DNA from: a virus
Virus record (IMG/VR): IMGVR_UViG_3300025889_000088
Coordinates: 30,520 to 94,519 of that record
Strand: one strand, 5' to 3'
Length of the DNA: 64,000 nt
The stretch's first letter is position 1. Each line of letters opens with the position of its first letter. Positions 47,198 to 62,258 of the stretch are shown here, piece by piece. Both the position numbers and the translations under genes were made by a program. The notes beneath the pieces were generated by a model. The model ran no database searches and was not told where the DNA came from. It saw only the letters and a program-made list of their open reading frames with translations.

Positions 47198-48250
47198 TCA
47201 GACTGCGGCTTTGATTTGTCGTTCATAATGTTCCACCAGTTTAGTTGACGCAAGGTTCTTGAACTTTGACTCCACCATTATGTCAGAATATGGAAGGAAT
47301 GTCAAGGCCCAATCGTTTGATGCGTGATTCCACATCATATCACTATGTGCGCGAAGTTTAGCTTTCTTGTAGCCACTTTCCAGTAACTGTTTCATGTCAG
47401 GTAGGACATTTGGATCGTGACCGACAAGCAAATCTTCACGCGATACAGAATAGTGAATGGTAGGACGAACACCACGCCAACTATCAATCACACGCTTGAA
47501 GCGGTCATCGTTGGCTTGGATATATTCTTCGTCACGGATTAGGTGATGGTGAATGTCAAGGACAAGCGCAACATCATTAGCAAGTTCAAGCGATGCGTCA
47601 AGACCCCACGACATTTCATCGTTCTCAATCGTTAGACAGTTACGGGCTTCGGTAGACAAACGCGGTAGGACAGCACGAATACCGTCAGGACCACCGCGAC
47701 CACCGATATGGACATTTACTTTCATATCCATAAACTTTTGACCGTAACCCATCATACGAGCAATATCAATATGATACTCAAACTCGTCAATAGAGTTATT
47801 CACGGTGTCTGGATTGTCTGACGCAAGCACACAAAACTGACCGGGGTGCATGGATACACGCACATCGTGTTCACGCGCAAGGTCACCGATAGCGGCGAGT
47901 GTGCGTTCACAGTATGTTTTTACGTCAGGTTGTTGATAGAAGTATGACCAATCGGGGTGTGTGTACACAGGCATCACTTCGCTGCCGATACGCACCATAC
48001 GTTGGTTTGGGGGGAGTGTCGCAACATACTTGATTAGTAGGCGAACAGAGTTGATGTTGGACTTGGTTAGTTCCCAGAGTCGTTCTTCTGCTCGTCGCTT
48101 GGGTTGCGAACTAAGCCACTTGACGGTGGTTGTGCGCCCGTTGATAGGACGCTCGATATCTTCAAGTAGCTTTTTGGATAGTGTGCGGTCAGGGTGCATA
48201 TACTTACACGCAAAGCCGACACGATGTATGGTTTGGTCAAAATATGTCAT
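47198..48250 (-). CDS. uvsE: UvdE-like UV-damage endonuclease
   Basis: 350 aa TIM-barrel endonuclease of the UVDE family that nicks 5' to UV photoproducts. Visible: RVGFACKYMHP at the start, VSMHPGQFCVLAS, KVNVHIGGRGG, CLTIENDEMSW, VLDIHHHLI, and KLRAHSDMMWNH, supplying the metal-binding His, Glu and Asp residues. The sigma70-like -10 is 7 bp before the ATG, so the transcript should be leaderless. Confidence 0.93.
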   Translation of the reverse strand: MTYFDQTIHRVGFACKYMHPDRTLSKKLLEDIERPINGRTTTVKWLSSQPKRRAEERLWELTKSNINSVRLLIKYVATLPPNQRMVRIGSEVMPVYTHPDWSYFYQQPDVKTYCERTLAAIGDLAREHDVRVSMHPGQFCVLASDNPDTVNNSIDEFEYHIDIARMMGYGQKFMDMKVNVHIGGRGGPDGIRAVLPRLSTEARNCLTIENDEMSWGLDASLELANDVALVLDIHHHLIRDEEYIQANDDRFKRVIDSWRGVRPTIHYSVSREDLLVGHDPNVLPDMKQLLESGYKKAKLRAHSDMMWNHASNDWALTFLPYSDIMVESKFKNLASTKLVEHYERQIKAAV

Positions 48251-51650: not shown

Positions 51651-52580
51651 TCAAAGACCTTTATAATATGATGGTTTCTTTAATATATCGGCGTATGGTT
51701 GACCGATTTCCACGGGATTAGCAGGACATTTACCGCACATCCAATGAGCTTTATCTGAATTTTCAGAAAATTCTTGTAGTTCTTCATCGGAACAATCGTA
51801 ATCTAATCCTTGGAAATTATAATACCGTTGCCATTTTGGATGGTCTTGTAAATTATATTTTTCTAACTGTGGTCGTAACATAGCGATAGTAGCACATTTA
51901 TAAAACTTTCCTTCGTATAGGGAAGCACAAGTCATTGATTTATGTGCTTTAAAACTTTTTTCTGGATCATTATCTTCGTATGGCATCATTGTGGGACCGT
52001 AACCTTGATAAGATTTTACCCAATTGATATGATCGCAATATTTTATTCGCAGTGTTACACCAGCAGCACTTTTAAATCTTTCGTGGGATAATCCTAAATT
52101 TGTTCTGGCTTCACTAATTTTTTCCCATTTATCCCAAGCGAAAATAGTTTTTAGTGTATTCTTCCACATACGCTGATACGCAGGGTCTTTAGAATGCTCG
52201 CTAACATAAAGCTTTATATTTGTATCCTGTAACCATTTATATAGATCGGGTAGATGGGGAATTTTAAGACCATTCGTTGATAGTGATTTTTCGGGTTCAG
52301 GAAAATATTGGGCGATACCATAAATCCATTCTTTTAAATCGGGATGCATAGTTGGTTCACCACCAATTAGACTAATATTGCCAGTTCTATTCGTACCCTG
52401 TTCATCAATCATATCTGGAAAATATACTCGTTTACTCCAAATATCCATCCATTGCTCTGCATCTTTCCATCTGGTAAAACCAGGATGATCGTGTTCAATG
52501 TATCTATCACAACCATAACAAGCCAAATTACAGCTTGACGCAATCATAATGCCAGTTGGACGTATTGGGAACTTTTTCAT
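51651..52580 (-). CDS. Radical SAM protein 2
   Basis: 309 aa. CX3CX2C in IASSCNLACYGCDRYIEHDH and the GGE motif in ISLIGGEPTMHPDLK. C-terminal cysteines (TCASLYEGKFYKCATI; WMCGKCPANP) suggest an auxiliary Fe-S cluster. Same general layout as 42117-42980, but the sequences differ well beyond recent duplication. Substrate unknown. AAGGAG and a sigma70-like promoter upstream. Confidence 0.9.
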   Translation of the reverse strand: MKKFPIRPTGIMIASSCNLACYGCDRYIEHDHPGFTRWKDAEQWMDIWSKRVYFPDMIDEQGTNRTGNISLIGGEPTMHPDLKEWIYGIAQYFPEPEKSLSTNGLKIPHLPDLYKWLQDTNIKLYVSEHSKDPAYQRMWKNTLKTIFAWDKWEKISEARTNLGLSHERFKSAAGVTLRIKYCDHINWVKSYQGYGPTMMPYEDNDPEKSFKAHKSMTCASLYEGKFYKCATIAMLRPQLEKYNLQDHPKWQRYYNFQGLDYDCSDEELQEFSENSDKAHWMCGKCPANPVEIGQPYADILKKPSYYKGL

Positions 52581-52630: not shown

Positions 52631-52726
52631 TCTATACGATGTGGCGTTCCGTATGGTAAAGTGTATTGTACACAAGCGTCACGGTCAATATCGGGGGCAA
52701 GAAAAGCCCCTGCACACTTTTATTTA

Positions 52727-52734
52727 TGTAAATA
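52727..52734 (+). promoter_or_regulatory. TAAATA box 4 bp before the SbmA-like ATG
   Basis: TGTAAATA (seven of eight to TATAAATA), CCTT, then ATG at 52739. No ribosome binding site. A GGGGC/GCCCC hairpin lies about 20 bp further upstream. Confidence 0.42.
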
Positions 52735-52738
52735 CCTT

Positions 52739-53710
52739 ATGTTCAAAGCATTTTTTACCAGCCGTGAATGGGTGTTATGGGCTTGGGGTGGTGCCTTATT
52801 ACTTCTCGCTTCAATCTATTCACAAGTAGAAATCACTGTTATGATAAACAGTTGGTATAGAGATTTCTACAATATCCTACAAGAAGCAACCAAGCATCCT
52901 GTATCCAAGTTTTGGGATGGCATAGAAACATTCCTATATTTGGCTATGCCATATGTTGCAATCGTTTCTGCTACAAACTGGTTCGGCAGAGTATGGATAT
53001 TTCGTTGGCGTGAAGCAATCACGTTCAACTATCTACCACGATGGCAGAAGGTTGAACATGAGATTGAGGGTGCCAGCCAGCGTATACAGGAAGACACACA
53101 CCGTTTAGCAAAGATTTTAGAAAGTTTGGGTATGCAAGTTGTAAAAGCAGTTATGCTTGTTATTGCTTTTATTCCAATCCTTTGGGAATTATCCAACGAC
53201 GTCAGCATTGAACCATTCGCCAGCATTGATGGGTCACTGGTATGGTTAGCGATTGCAGTTAGCATCGGCGGGATTATTATTAGTTGGTTCGTGGGATGGT
53301 TCTTGCCAGGATTGGAATATAATAACCAGAAGGTAGAAGCAGCATTCCGTAAAGAGTTAGTGTATGCGGAAGATGATAAAAATAACTACGGTAAAACAGA
53401 AACAGTTGTAGAGTTATTTACAGGATTACGATTCAACTATCAGCGTTTATTCAATCATTACGGTTATTTTGATTTATGGTCTAATAGTTTAGGACAGTTT
53501 ATGGTAGTTGCCCCATATCTGGTGATGGGTCCAAGTTTGTTTACGGGTGCTATTATGTTGGGCGTTATGGTACAGGTCAGTAACGCATTCCAAAAAGTTT
53601 ATCAATCGTTCAATGTGATTATGGAAAACTGGACGGTGCTTACGGAACTACGATCTATTTGGAAACGTTTGCGAGAGTTTGAGCGTAACTTAGAAGAACA
53701 GGTCAAATAA
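52739..53710 (+). CDS. SbmA/BacA-family peptide transporter
   Basis: 323 aa against about 400 in E. coli SbmA. Several membrane segments and the family core: FRWREAITFNYLPRWQKVEH, EGASQRIQEDTHRLAKILES, LPGLEYNNQKVEAAFRKELV and YAEDDKNNYG, ending with VLTELRSIWKRLREFE. Compared with SbmA the extra N-terminal membrane segments are missing, as expected from the shorter start MFKAFFTSREW. The family imports proline-rich peptides, microcins and bleomycin using the proton gradient. Confidence 0.92.
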   Translation: MFKAFFTSREWVLWAWGGALLLLASIYSQVEITVMINSWYRDFYNILQEATKHPVSKFWDGIETFLYLAMPYVAIVSATNWFGRVWIFRWREAITFNYLPRWQKVEHEIEGASQRIQEDTHRLAKILESLGMQVVKAVMLVIAFIPILWELSNDVSIEPFASIDGSLVWLAIAVSIGGIIISWFVGWFLPGLEYNNQKVEAAFRKELVYAEDDKNNYGKTETVVELFTGLRFNYQRLFNHYGYFDLWSNSLGQFMVVAPYLVMGPSLFTGAIMLGVMVQVSNAFQKVYQSFNVIMENWTVLTELRSIWKRLREFERNLEEQVK

Positions 53711-56449: not shown

Positions 56450-56655
56450 TCACCATTCCATTTCCATAGGTTGCCGTTTAGAGACTTTACCGCTTCCATA
56501 TTGTTTTCACATATAGGTTCAGTAGGATGATAATGTTCCGTGGTTATAATAATCTCTAACGCCATTCTACCATAACATCTATCGTGGGCACAGTTGAAAC
56601 ATCCTCTATCTGTGGGCTGTGTAAGAGCATCCCAGAACTCTTCTTTAGAAATCAT
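56446..56655 (-). CDS. Cysteine-rich small protein, 69 aa
   Basis: ATG 56655 (MISKEEFWDALTQPTDRGCF). Cysteines in GCFNCAHDRCYG and later PICENN suggest one metal site. It ends NGNLWKWNGE, a pattern seen in small proteins of marine phages. Overlaps amidinotransferase start by 4 bp. Confidence 0.65.
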   Translation of the reverse strand: MISKEEFWDALTQPTDRGCFNCAHDRCYGRMALEIIITTEHYHPTEPICENNMEAVKSLNGNLWKWNGE

Positions 56656-57280
56656 ATTCCCATCGTCTAATGTCTTCATCACATACTTCCGCTACTCTAT
56701 CACGGGCACTACGATTATACTCTTTATGATAATCATTTGGTCGCTTGGATTTATTCAGTGTATCTCGTTCTACCTTATATCCAAGTAAATCAGAAAGATA
56801 TTCGTCTAATAGTTGTCCATCCTCTAATCTTATCACATCCATATCGTGCCCGTCAATACAATAACTCATACTCTTCTCAAGGGTATTGAGTGGGTTGTCC
56901 GTGTATTTGTATTCTGCTGGATGAATGTATTTGCCGTGTAATATCCAATCAGGGAAACTAAACTTCTCAGTGTATTCCGCTGTTTCCAAATACCAAGCTT
57001 TTAGTTGTGGGTTTTTATTTTCCGTCTTATGCATTTTGCGGAAGCGGGATTTGATATCCCAATACAATGAATGAAAGCGTTCCCAAGGGTTTCTAACAAC
57101 CGTAAAGACACGCTTCTGTGTGATTGGCTTGGGCCAGTATCTTACCTCTATGTGCTTGTAAATACGCATATGTCTGGAATCTACGCTACCAGATACATCA
57201 TTCAATAATGAACGAATACTGGTTCCACCGCATTTCATAATATGGTAGAAACACCAATCTCTCTCGTCGTTTATAACCAT
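56645..57280 (-). CDS. Sulfotransferase, Sulfotransfer_2 type
   Basis: 211 aa from ATG 57280 (TAATG overlap). PAPS loop WCFYHIMKCGGTSIRSLL and 3'-phosphate motif FTVVRNPWERFHSLYWDIK, as in carbohydrate sulfotransferases. Adds sulfate to an unknown glycan or small molecule. Sits between the amidinotransferase and a membrane protein gene. Confidence 0.88.
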   Translation of the reverse strand: MVINDERDWCFYHIMKCGGTSIRSLLNDVSGSVDSRHMRIYKHIEVRYWPKPITQKRVFTVVRNPWERFHSLYWDIKSRFRKMHKTENKNPQLKAWYLETAEYTEKFSFPDWILHGKYIHPAEYKYTDNPLNTLEKSMSYCIDGHDMDVIRLEDGQLLDEYLSDLLGYKVERDTLNKSKRPNDYHKEYNRSARDRVAEVCDEDIRRWEYDF

Positions 57281-57612
57281 TATAAAATCAAACTCATCCA
57301 AGTGTAATCTTTACCACGCATCATCCTAAAGTTGTATCCAATAACGTGATATGTATCATAATGATAGCAGTATTCGTGTAAAGGTTCAATATAGTAATAT
57401 CTTCTTTTTAGTCTATTATCAAAGATGGCTTTGTATTTGCTATATTCCCACGCTGAAACATATACCTTATGCTTATAGATTTTACACATAATATGGTTAT
57501 AAAGTTTGGTTCCCCATTCAGCCGAAAGCCATAACAATATAACCCCTAGAGCGATAGGGAGTAGTATCAAGCATAATAGAATTTCTAATAATCTACCTAT
57601 CCACCCCAGCAT
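57280..57612 (-). CDS. Membrane protein, 110 aa
   Basis: One or two N-terminal membrane segments (LEILLCLILLPIALGVILLW), then a soluble Tyr-rich tail (KRRYYYIEPLHEYCYHYDTY). Overlaps the oxygenase-like gene by 20 bp. Not recognised. Confidence 0.7.
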   Translation of the reverse strand: MLGWIGRLLEILLCLILLPIALGVILLWLSAEWGTKLYNHIMCKIYKHKVYVSAWEYSKYKAIFDNRLKRRYYYIEPLHEYCYHYDTYHVIGYNFRMMRGKDYTWMSLIL

Positions 57613-59062: not shown

Positions 59063-59774
59063 AATACTTCTCCATAATATCTGCTGCTGCTTCGTGTGCT
59101 GGTTCCAATGGATGACCCATAGGTGCCTTCGGAAAATCATTAGCATTTGCCCAATACACAAATCCAGTTGGCCCAAGGTCGTGTGGAAACCATCTAAACT
59201 TATACCAATCAATAGCATCGTAATATGCCTTAGAGTGTGTTGGGTTTTGGAATGCACGATATTCATTCCAGTTTTCAGCCGTAGTAAAGATATACGGAAT
59301 GTTTCTATTATTTAGAAACTCTTGGACCATCAGTATTTCCGCAAGGCTACTATCAGTTTCATTAGCATCACCAACTAACTTATAGTGTGCTTCTACCCAA
59401 TCAGTAACACCAAACTCATGAATACGCTCAATATAGTCTTTACCGAAACATTTAGCAACAGTTTCGTCGCCCAGATTTAGATGAGCGGGTGTTATTGTGT
59501 ACCAAGGACTGTTGCGCTCTTGTGTATCAAACGATAACAGATAGTCGTAACGGGAAAGATAAGACCATTGAACGATTACAAATAAGTCTTCTTCGGCAAG
59601 GGCAGAAACTTCATTGATAACCTTATGAGCAATGTACCTATTACCGACACCAGTATGCCCAGCGTTTACATAAGACATATTGTGCCGACGAGCAAGTTTA
59701 CAAGGCCAAGTTTGTTCTTGGCTTTCCAGTTCCGCGCCTTCAATAAGACTACAACCAGCACCGATTACAATCAT
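59043..59774 (-). CDS. SGNH/GDSL-like esterase-type protein, 243 aa
   Basis: ATG 59774 overlaps the stop of the dehydrogenase C-half. MIVIGAGCSLIEGAELES occupies the nucleophile block, GHTGVGNRYIAHKVINEV the GxN block, and MGHPLEPAHEAAADIM the DxxH-like block. It could deacylate a sugar made by the neighbouring enzymes. Related in layout to 41344-42126. Confidence 0.65.
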   Translation of the reverse strand: MIVIGAGCSLIEGAELESQEQTWPCKLARRHNMSYVNAGHTGVGNRYIAHKVINEVSALAEEDLFVIVQWSYLSRYDYLLSFDTQERNSPWYTITPAHLNLGDETVAKCFGKDYIERIHEFGVTDWVEAHYKLVGDANETDSSLAEILMVQEFLNNRNIPYIFTTAENWNEYRAFQNPTHSKAYYDAIDWYKFRWFPHDLGPTGFVYWANANDFPKAPMGHPLEPAHEAAADIMEKYFVQEIN

Positions 59775-60304
59775 CGGGTCTTTCCGTAATATTTTACCTT
59801 GTGTTGAGTCCAGACTTGTCTCCAAGGATCAACAACGACTGAGTCTTCTGCTCCTTGGTCAAATCTGTCGAGCGGGTGAGCAAGTAGATACACCGCAGGT
59901 GCATCAAGTATTTTATCGTAATGTAGCTCGCCGCCAAGATGCTCAACATAAGAACCCACAAGAATGCTTGAACTTCCATCTTCATATTCCACACCTGGTT
60001 TGTACGATTTACCAAGTATAACAACAGGAAGTTTATATTTCATTAATGCTTCTGCCATATTTTTTGCTTGTTTCTCTCTGGCATTCATAATGGCATCAAA
60101 TAGGTCATAGCCAAGATCAAGGTTATCTGCCATCCATCGTAGGGCAATGTTGTCTCTTGGATGGCAGTTATGGATTACAATACCTGTATCAGCACACAGA
60201 TAAAACTGATCGTCTTTTTCTTCGTGGTTAGGTTCTACTTCAAGATTATACACATCGCCTGTATATTCTTCAACTTGAATATCTACTATCTTTTCCGTTG
60301 CCAT
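59771..60304 (-). CDS. ugd-C: Split-intein C-part fused to C-half of a nucleotide-sugar dehydrogenase
   Basis: 177 aa. Residues 1-46 are a C-intein: EEYTGDVYNLEVEPNHEEK (block F type) ending GIVIHN (block G), followed by the +1 Cys. Residues 47-177 are the C-terminal half of a UDP-glucose dehydrogenase-type enzyme, starting at the catalytic cysteine (CHPRDNIALRW) and containing VVILGKSYKPGVEYEDGSSS. Trans-splicing with the product of 61170-62258 would give an enzyme of about 389 aa, the normal family length. Confidence 0.9.
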   Translation of the reverse strand: MATEKIVDIQVEEYTGDVYNLEVEPNHEEKDDQFYLCADTGIVIHNCHPRDNIALRWMADNLDLGYDLFDAIMNAREKQAKNMAEALMKYKLPVVILGKSYKPGVEYEDGSSSILVGSYVEHLGGELHYDKILDAPAVYLLAHPLDRFDQGAEDSVVVDPWRQVWTQHKVKYYGKTR

Positions 60305-61115
60305 AAATCATTACACCTTTCTTTGTTAACTCGTTTTCTGTTAAAATGAGTATCTTTTCTGTTGATTGTTCTTTAAGTAACTCAAACTTTCGTTTTTGCC
60401 TTGCTAACCAATATGTTGCCTTAACATCAACATATTCATTTGTATCTATTAGATAAAAATCTGGATAATAGTTATGACTTACACCCTCGTCATCAACATA
60501 AGGGATTTTTCCAAAATGCGATTTGAACCTAATGCCATTGTTATCAAGATATTCAGCATATGCCAACTCCCAAGTTCCTTGACATTTATGTATTCTGCCA
60601 TTTTTATCAACATAATCATACCATTTACACTGTGTTGTTTTTTTATCTATATACTTGCCTTCTTCCCACGCTTTCTTCGTTGCGTTTGAATACTTTTGTC
60701 GTTCTTCGGGAGTCATATTTGCTGACCGTGTTTCACTGACTCTCTTTTGCGTATCTGGATTTTTCATAGGATTATTATCTCCTATCATTCTTCCAGTTTC
60801 TTCACAATGTTGTTTCATAGTCACAGACATTTCTTGGCGTTTTTTAGGATCACTCCATACTTTTTTAAGACCTTCTCTCATTTTTTCAATCTTTTCTGGT
60901 CTACTATTGAGTATGGGACGCCAGCAAACATTACAATAATCTTTATCAAATAGTTCCTGTTTTTTCATCTTATTATAATGACCAAGTGTTCTGTTATGTT
61001 TTTCACCACATTCGTCACACTCAATAAGAACCATCTTCTCCTTTATTGTTCGTTTACCAGATAATGACTTTTTACACTTTTCAGTTTTATCTCTCCTGTA
61101 TTCTTCTATAACCAT
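60270..61115 (-). CDS. Homing endonuclease between the split-intein halves (EDxHD/Vsr-like)
   Basis: 281 aa from ATG 61115 (AGGAG, with TATAAATA further upstream). N-terminal zinc-finger-like CDECGEKHN...YCNVC, then NUMOD3-like repeats (DNNPMKNPDTQKRVSETRS), then a nuclease domain: CQGTWELAYAEYLDNNGIRF, YYPDFYLIDTNEYVDVKATY. The E-PDF-DVK order fits the Vsr-like EDxHD homing endonucleases found in other fractured genes. It presumably cuts intact dehydrogenase genes that lack the element. Confidence 0.85.
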   Translation of the reverse strand: MVIEEYRRDKTEKCKKSLSGKRTIKEKMVLIECDECGEKHNRTLGHYNKMKKQELFDKDYCNVCWRPILNSRPEKIEKMREGLKKVWSDPKKRQEMSVTMKQHCEETGRMIGDNNPMKNPDTQKRVSETRSANMTPEERQKYSNATKKAWEEGKYIDKKTTQCKWYDYVDKNGRIHKCQGTWELAYAEYLDNNGIRFKSHFGKIPYVDDEGVSHNYYPDFYLIDTNEYVDVKATYWLARQKRKFELLKEQSTEKILILTENELTKKGVMIYGNGKDSRYSS

Positions 61116-61135
61116 TTTGTATCTCCTGTATAAAG

Positions 61136-61143
61136 TATTTATA
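61136..61143 (-). promoter_or_regulatory. T4-like late promoter box for the endonuclease
   Basis: Exact TATAAATA 20 bp before the ATG at 61115, with AGGAG between. It lies between the N-half stop and the endonuclease gene, so the endonuclease can be expressed separately. Confidence 0.7.
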
Positions 61144-61169
61144 CAAAAAATACATAACAAGCCCCGCTA

Positions 61170-62258
61170 TCACCCAAAAACAAACATTTTATCTGTGTTT
61201 TTTACTTCTTTTGCTGGTATAATGATTCGTTTTCTGTCTCGCTCAATGGGGATAAGATGATCTTCTGTTACGGATATACTCTTTCCGCTACTTGTAGTAA
61301 ATGTGTATAGTTTTCCCGTATATTCTCGTTTAGTTACTTCTGCTATTTTCTTTTGGTCCGTATTGGTTCCTGACCAGTTCATAGAATCAACAATATAGTA
61401 TTCGTTTTCATCAAACTTTTCATAAAGATCGCTTATTGATACTACTTCATCATTTACAGTGACTTTGAAATCAGGTTTTACACAAGCTCCACCATCGCCC
61501 ATACCAGCCTTCATATACATAGGAGACATAATGCGATGCGTCGAATCCGCCAAGGCTTTTGTAACCACATCAACGTCAATATTACCTTGTCGTTCAGCAA
61601 CATCTTGAATCATGTTCACCAGCGACACTTTCGTTGAAATGAATGTATTATAGAAGATTTTGATACATTCACATTCGTCCCAAGTACCAACGATATAGCG
61701 TGGATCATTTTCCATAATCGTCTTATAGAAGTCGATCAGTTCTTTTGCGTCAGTGGTTTCATCACCGTCCTTTGTACCAATCATTACCATTTCTGGATTG
61801 ATCATATCCCAACCCACAGTACCCATAGCAATAAGATATGGATTATAGACGAAACGATGTTTCATTCGTGGCATCAGATCAATAAACTCTCTACGAACTG
61901 TGCCGGGCAGAACGGTTGAAATCAATACAACCAGTGTCGTATTGTTGGCATATCTTTCTACTTCGGTTAGAACTTCTTTTACGATAGAATAGTCAAAGTC
62001 TTTTGGTTCTAAATGCGCCGTCGGGTAACGTCCGTCATATTCTTTTTCGTGCGGTGTTGGAACAGCAATAAATACAATGTCTGGGCAGTTATCATCTTGA
62101 TAACCATAATGAATGAGGTCTTTGATAGAATCTTTCTTTTCTACAAGTCCTGATTCAAAACCAGAAATATCATAACCAGTAACAGTATGACCTTTTTTAG
62201 CAATCTCTTCCGCACAGGGAAGTCCAAGTTTCCCAACACCGATAAACGCAATTCTCAA
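61170..62258 (-). CDS. ugd-N: N-half of a nucleotide-sugar dehydrogenase fused to split-intein N-part
   Basis: 362 aa, TTG start at 62258 with AAGGAG. Residues 1-258 form the NAD-binding and central domains (IAFIGVGKLGLPCAEEIAKK; FIAVPTP; CIKIFYNTFISTKVSLVNMI). They stop exactly before the active-site Cys, at KAGMGDGGA. Residues 259-362 are an N-intein: CVKPDFKVTV (block A), TSSGKSISVTEDHLIPIE (block B, TxxH). UDP-glucose is the likeliest substrate but UDP-GlcNAc/ManNAc types cannot be excluded. Confidence 0.92.
   Translation of the reverse strand: MRIAFIGVGKLGLPCAEEIAKKGHTVTGYDISGFESGLVEKKDSIKDLIHYGYQDDNCPDIVFIAVPTPHEKEYDGRYPTAHLEPKDFDYSIVKEVLTEVERYANNTTLVVLISTVLPGTVRREFIDLMPRMKHRFVYNPYLIAMGTVGWDMINPEMVMIGTKDGDETTDAKELIDFYKTIMENDPRYIVGTWDECECIKIFYNTFISTKVSLVNMIQDVAERQGNIDVDVVTKALADSTHRIMSPMYMKAGMGDGGACVKPDFKVTVNDEVVSISDLYEKFDENEYYIVDSMNWSGTNTDQKKIAEVTKREYTGKLYTFTTSSGKSISVTEDHLIPIERDRKRIIIPAKEVKNTDKMFVFG

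Follow-up and report, generated by a model that had tools for sequence, protein, structure and literature searches.

The closest described relatives of the locus considered here, a fractured UDP-glucose/GDP-mannose dehydrogenase (UGDH) gene in a 64,000-nucleotide (nt) stretch of phage DNA (the window: positions 30520-94519 of the 94.5-kb virus record IMGVR_UViG_3300025889_000088), are genes broken by split inteins. Dassa and colleagues are said to have described, in 2009, fractured genes with split inteins in eight types of DNA synthesis and repair enzymes, along with a new family of Vsr-like nucleases that is reportedly present at about half of the loci. These loci reportedly share with the present one a phage setting, a conserved enzyme gene that a split intein breaks in two, an endonuclease gene standing free between the parts, and control elements that arrive with the nuclease gene; they differ in that the broken gene of the window encodes a sugar-nucleotide dehydrogenase and its nuclease resembles T7 endonuclease I. 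The AceL NrdHF locus, on a phage-like metagenomic contig, has an N-terminal intein part (IN) of 98 amino acids (aa), a C-terminal part (IC) of 48 aa and a GIY-YIG nuclease between them (PMC7891396). Contig type, fracture and IN/IC sizes are comparable to those reported below, where one group of alleles also has a putative GIY-YIG nuclease, but the AceL intein is of class 3 and interrupts a ribonucleotide reductase gene, whereas that of the window is a class 1 intein in UGDH. In Pseudomonas phage MIJ3 a split intein joins the halves of PolB and an HNH endonuclease open reading frame lies between them (PMC6892783): the arrangement is alike, but host gene, nuclease type and the first intein residue (Ser1) are different.

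The insertion site itself has been occupied in archaea: three Methanocaldococcus UGDH genes (G005, G009 and G014; 895-899 codons) carry an intein at GYGGS^CFHPDE...LIHN^CFPKD. This is the known UDPGD intein type (InBase name). It occupies the identical position in a nucleotide-sugar dehydrogenase, just ahead of the catalytic Cys, but is contiguous, about 450 aa long, contains a LAGLIDADG endonuclease and resides in an archaeal chromosome. A first-pass annotation of the window, made from the letters alone, had suggested that host gene and insertion site might both be new. A new site must be rejected, the Methanocaldococcus inteins lying at the same Cys; the host gene retains its claim, in that no fractured UGDH was found in the literature searched (most subscription journals lay outside the search).

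The locus of the window is very probably a mobile split-intein/endonuclease cassette whose two protein halves trans-splice to an active UGDH. Its layout, motifs and exact junction, as well as purifying selection and mobility as a unit, are apparent in the sequence. Three genes, all on the minus strand, follow one another: the N-half gene (62258-61170, TTG start), the 846-bp endonuclease gene that the first pass had placed between the halves (61115-60270; 281 aa plus stop), and the C-half gene (60304-59771). UGDH is cut after residue 258, at its catalytic Cys. The features are these:

61485-62258, minus strand: UGDH N-extein, residues 1-258 (PF03721, 3e-20; PF00984, 1.2e-13; PHROG 9148, 1.1e-73)
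61170-61484, minus strand: predicted split-intein IN, 104 aa plus stop codon, with block B TEDH (TIGR01445; fused IN+IC matches 2jmz)
61136-61143, minus strand: TATAAATA, a T4-type late-promoter-like motif 5' of the endonuclease gene (ATAAATA positional statistics)
60270-61115, minus strand: predicted endonuclease, with a CxxC...CxxC zinc-finger-like N terminus, a basic linker and a T7-endonuclease-I-like PD-(D/E)XK domain (hmmsearch, invariant residues)
60167-60304, minus strand: predicted split-intein IC, 46 aa, VYNLEVEPNH...GIVIHN (TIGR01443; near-invariant block in relatives)
59771-60166, minus strand: UGDH C-extein, 131 aa from the catalytic Cys (CHPRDN) plus stop codon (PHROG 9148, 1.5e-20, profile 261-374)

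The fractured UGDH is confirmed as real, neither chance nor a single misassembly: the order N-extein-IN, nuclease, IC-C-extein is seen again in many independent contigs, among them at least 10 further distinct UGDH alleles in virus contigs, and uninterrupted relatives span the junction. The exteins amount to 258 + 131 = 389 aa, as had been estimated. The NAD-binding (PF03721) and central (PF00984) domains score above the Pfam cut-off, the catalytic GG-x-C is present, and both exteins match the UDP-glucose dehydrogenase profile PHROG 9148, meeting at its position 261-265; on the separate halves TIGR03026 scores under its full-length cut-off. Intact relatives, which the first-pass annotation had proposed to seek, are abundant: 66 distinct empty alleles in virus contigs read straight through the junction as GMGDGG[A/S/G]CHPRDN, so that the insertion is scarless and lies directly 5' of the catalytic Cys codon. 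By its position in the sequence this Cys doubles as the intein +1 nucleophile. The virus record yielded neither a second UGDH nor a second intein N terminus.

The flanking segments were recognized at first pass as a Cys-led extension of the N-half after GMGDGGA and a 46-aa leader of the C-half ending in VIHN before CHPRDN. Both descriptions hold (...YMKAGMGDGGA is followed by CVKPDFK, and GIVIHN by CHPRDN), and the profile search of the two parts that had been proposed places each above a curated intein cut-off: IN scores 45.4 bits against 24.5 for intein_Nterm (TIGR01445), and the C-half 22.4 bits against 15.6 for intein_Cterm (TIGR01443). Fused, the 150 aa of IN and IC match the structure of the M. 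jannaschii KlbA intein (2jmz, MJ0781; E 5.5e-11). The class 1 residues are all present, Cys259 at position 1, TEDH in block B, the terminal VIHN and the +1 Cys, and are the same in aligned relatives. On these motifs the intein is assigned to the naturally split class 1 type, with an N part of 104 aa and a C part of 46 aa. The search of known isolated phages gave no match extending into it. (A terminator hairpin 3' of the N-half gene is plausible in L195 and L207 and weak in the window; we do not claim it.)

What moves with this intein is a predicted nuclease. Its profile matches T7 endonuclease I (1m0d, 1fzr, 2pfj), with E values for 1m0d of 7.6e-8 when built from four homologues and 1.2e-6 from twelve; three homologues touch Pfam Phage_endo_I with sub-threshold scores. 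Eight residues are invariant in 12 of 12 homologues: C33, C36, C61 and C64, which make up the CxxC...CxxC pairs near the N terminus, and E183, D219, D230 and K232, the last three forming an active site of the pattern PD-x10-DxK. We take E183/D219/D230/K232 to correspond to the T7 catalytic residues E20/D55/E65/K67 (T7 numbering); the profile-aligned stretch takes in D219, D230 and K232, while E183 lies just before it and was matched to E20 by eye. Pfam left the zinc-finger region unnamed and found no NUMOD motif. The protein is thus best described, from its profile and invariant residues, as a predicted T7-endonuclease-I-type PD-(D/E)XK core behind a zinc-finger-like DNA-binding N terminus. 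T7 endonuclease I itself shares the core and the corresponding catalytic residues but is a 149-aa resolvase without the zinc-finger-like N terminus and is not found in an intein. The homologues suggest a T7-endonuclease-I-like class of homing endonucleases.

Do cassette and host gene share a history? The comparisons show that they do not, and that the cassette moves horizontally as a unit. In the extein tree split alleles are scattered among empty ones, with 7 changes in the best tree, of which well-supported branches force at least 4. Alleles L035 and L120 are 52% identical in the exteins, 82% in the intein and 74% in the nuclease; for L130 and L207 the corresponding values are 86%, 54% and 49%. 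On extein data L035 groups with L038/L040/L121 and with empty alleles (support 95/87), whereas nuclease and intein data reject the grouping of L035 with L038/L040/L121 (approximately unbiased (AU) test, p 5e-6 and 3e-4). Forcing the window and L033 together with L119/L195 on the intein tree, or L035 with L120 on a reduced extein tree, gave no decisive signal. Between alleles L130 and L132 nucleotide identity is about 70% in either extein and rises to about 92% across the cassette, with the step at the intein borders; synonymous divergence (dS) falls from 2.2-3.1 for the exteins to 0.24-0.50 for IN, nuclease and IC, and the ratio of nonsynonymous to synonymous divergence (dN/dS) for these three segments is 0.04-0.08, with a pairwise value of about 0.08 for nuclease and intein. 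That pattern is the clear footprint to be expected of recent homing by an active element.

The alleles of this one site form a series:

Empty: 66 distinct alleles
Contiguous inteins with LAGLIDADG_3 domains, 351 and 368 aa: L197, L217
Contiguous mini-intein, 154 aa, of the same family as the split inteins: L233
Split, with T7-like nuclease: window, L033, L036, L038, L119, L120, L121, L130, L132, L195, L207
Split, with a different nuclease (YIY...YIG motif; PHROG 314 'homing endonuclease', E 5.6e-12): L200 group
Split, 16-30 nt between the halves, without nuclease: L204, L212, L221

The nuclease of the fifth class (L200:1647-2531, plus strand; close copies in L201, L203, L222, L225 and L229) is putatively of GIY-YIG type, a reading based on PHROG 314 and the visible YIY...YIG, a Pfam search having returned no GIY-YIG hit; a second nuclease type at the same split-intein site is evidence for swapping of nucleases between cassettes. 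Among alleles of the last class, L221 has before its ATG the leader AAGAGAATTAGGAATTAAATT, which agrees at 18 positions with the 21 nt that end the T7-like nuclease genes and translates as RELGIKL-stop, the nuclease C terminus. Only 1 of 317 control leaders reaches that level, and that one itself resembles the tail of the L120 nuclease gene. We take L221 to have probably lost its nuclease gene by a deletion that left the 3' end behind, perhaps because this end holds the ribosome-binding site of the C-half. L221 stands alone in this respect: the 30-nt gap of L204 is no nearer to nuclease-gene tails than ordinary leaders are, and L212 gives no more than a hint. The stop codon of the nuclease gene and the start codon of the C-half share an ATGA in most alleles that have a nuclease; in the window this stop is lost, the nuclease gene runs about 10 codons further, into the C-half gene, and the two genes overlap by 35 bp (60270-60304, minus strand). 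Embedding the C-half start in the end of the nuclease gene would constrain nuclease deletion and may stabilize the element.

Two further arrangements were noted among the relatives. The UGDH N-half of L121/L122 (2824-4956, plus strand) has another intein, contiguous and about 350 aa long, at KVFYN^CYSDD...QGN^TFIS, which gives the gene one split and one contiguous intein. In L136 (265-1477, plus strand) the 3' part of a different UGDH gene is followed by a relative of the T7-like nuclease that stands on its own. The C terminus of this relative, DWEEMKGRAV, is similar to that of UGDH (DWLNLKGRAV), and the relative may be an intein-free homing insertion.

The first pass had credited the nuclease gene with a box of its own, and there is one: TATAAATA at 61143-61136 (minus strand), about 20 nt 5' of the ATG, resembles a T4-type late promoter. 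Six other minus-strand genes of the window, a tail-fibre-connector gene among them, have ATAAATA 12-40 nt upstream (of 11019, 28041, 30512, 31739, 37236 and 55395), where 0.5 would be expected by chance, and the count of this motif before genes is the highest among 21 7-mers of the same composition; the raw count in the window is not above chance, so that only the placement before genes is distinctive. This placement is consistent with T4-type late expression.

The proposed sequence of events would then be the following. A cassette of IN, homing endonuclease gene and IC would have been inserted exactly 5' of the catalytic Cys codon of a phage UGDH gene. The two half-genes would be translated separately; IN and IC would come together as a single Hint domain and undergo class 1 trans-splicing (Cys1, block-B Thr/His, His-Asn, +1 Cys) to yield a normal 389-aa UGDH whose nucleophile is the intein +1 Cys. 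The endonuclease, probably produced late from its own promoter, would recognize and cut the uninterrupted UGDH junction of co-infecting phages, and double-strand-break repair would copy the whole cassette into the cut allele.

A number of points weigh against this account. Pfam Intein_splicing (PF14890) scores 31.1 and 12.3 on the halves, under its gathering score of 35.8. The AlphaFold model of the N-half is poor (pLDDT 50), and a Foldseek search with the model of the nuclease (pLDDT 68.5) yielded no meaningful match, so that both fold assignments come from sequence profiles. The window allele is without a close donor, the homing footprint being that of its relatives; the late-promoter reading is one of positional statistics; and splicing, DNA cleavage and expression timing are predictions from sequence.

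Of the competing explanations, the one that survives best, unlikely as it is, makes the nuclease a resident phage resolvase that strayed into the locus without driving homing. Its core does match a Holliday-junction resolvase, and distant relatives stand alone in other phages; against this, the gene is fixed between IN and IC in many alleles and moves together with the intein, the protein has an added zinc-finger-like DNA-binding region, and the relative in L136 lies beside a different UGDH gene. It is slightly less probable that the halves assemble non-covalently into an active dehydrogenase with the flanking segments as inert tails. There is precedent in Aeh1 NrdA-a/b, where a gene split by a homing endonuclease is functional as two peptides (PMC3653736), but the tails that exceed the intein cut-offs also keep every splicing residue in all relatives examined, pairwise dN/dS of IN and IC is 0.04-0.26, the split falls at the catalytic Cys, and the same family includes the contiguous mini-intein allele L233. 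Equally improbable is a decayed element with an inactive intein or endonuclease and a dehydrogenase pseudogene: the window nuclease gene has indeed lost the stop common to most relatives, but all frames are open, the catalytic residues of dehydrogenase, intein and nuclease are intact, and extein dN/dS between the window and L033 is 0.08. Least likely is the EDxHD/Vsr-like homing endonuclease of the first-pass annotation, a family reportedly found at about half of the 2009 loci, which we reject since a profile search of all PDB chains gave T7 endonuclease I as the only significant match, with no Vsr or I-Bth0305I chain to E 10, and the PD...DxK site is invariant in 12 sequences. The first pass was right about the arrangement of the locus: the TIGR models, the layout and the relatives uphold a UGDH fractured by a split intein, with an endonuclease gene standing free between the halves.

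The carrier is a marine-type phage, and the window holds T4-like genes for a clamp loader, a baseplate/tail-fibre connector and thymidylate synthase. Near the UGDH locus are genes for a DegT-type aminotransferase, a sulfotransferase-like protein and an Asp/Asn hydroxylase-like protein, which are in keeping with an island for surface glycans or glycosylation; UDP-uronic acid, or a related sugar, would come from UGDH. Elsewhere in the window are a 349-aa SbmA/BacA-like peptide transporter (52661-53710, plus strand, opposite to most genes; PF05992, E 2.8e-113) and, on the minus strand, UvdE UV-endonuclease, radical-SAM and sulfotransferase-like genes (47198-48250, 51651-52580 and 56645-57301).

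What looks new is that a metabolic gene has been fractured and holds a T7-endonuclease-I-like nuclease gene, and that the allelic series at this one site is unusually complete; no homing endonuclease of T7-endonuclease-I type was found in the titles and abstracts searched (with most subscription journals again outside the search). The fracture lies in a metabolic gene, and the alleles make up a natural family of Cys+1 split inteins that could be used in protein ligation. How split inteins originate is an old open question, the usual idea being disruption of a contiguous intein by an endonuclease gene. At this one site in one virus gene family almost all of the stages are represented by natural alleles, which makes the order of events directly testable. 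On balance it appears likely that the catalytic Cys of viral UGDH presents a full intein homing-cycle series and that the T7-endonuclease-I-like enzymes are an unrecognized class of homing endonuclease. If so, a split intein can arise by invasion of a mini-intein by a free-standing nuclease gene, and can persist as such after the nuclease is lost.

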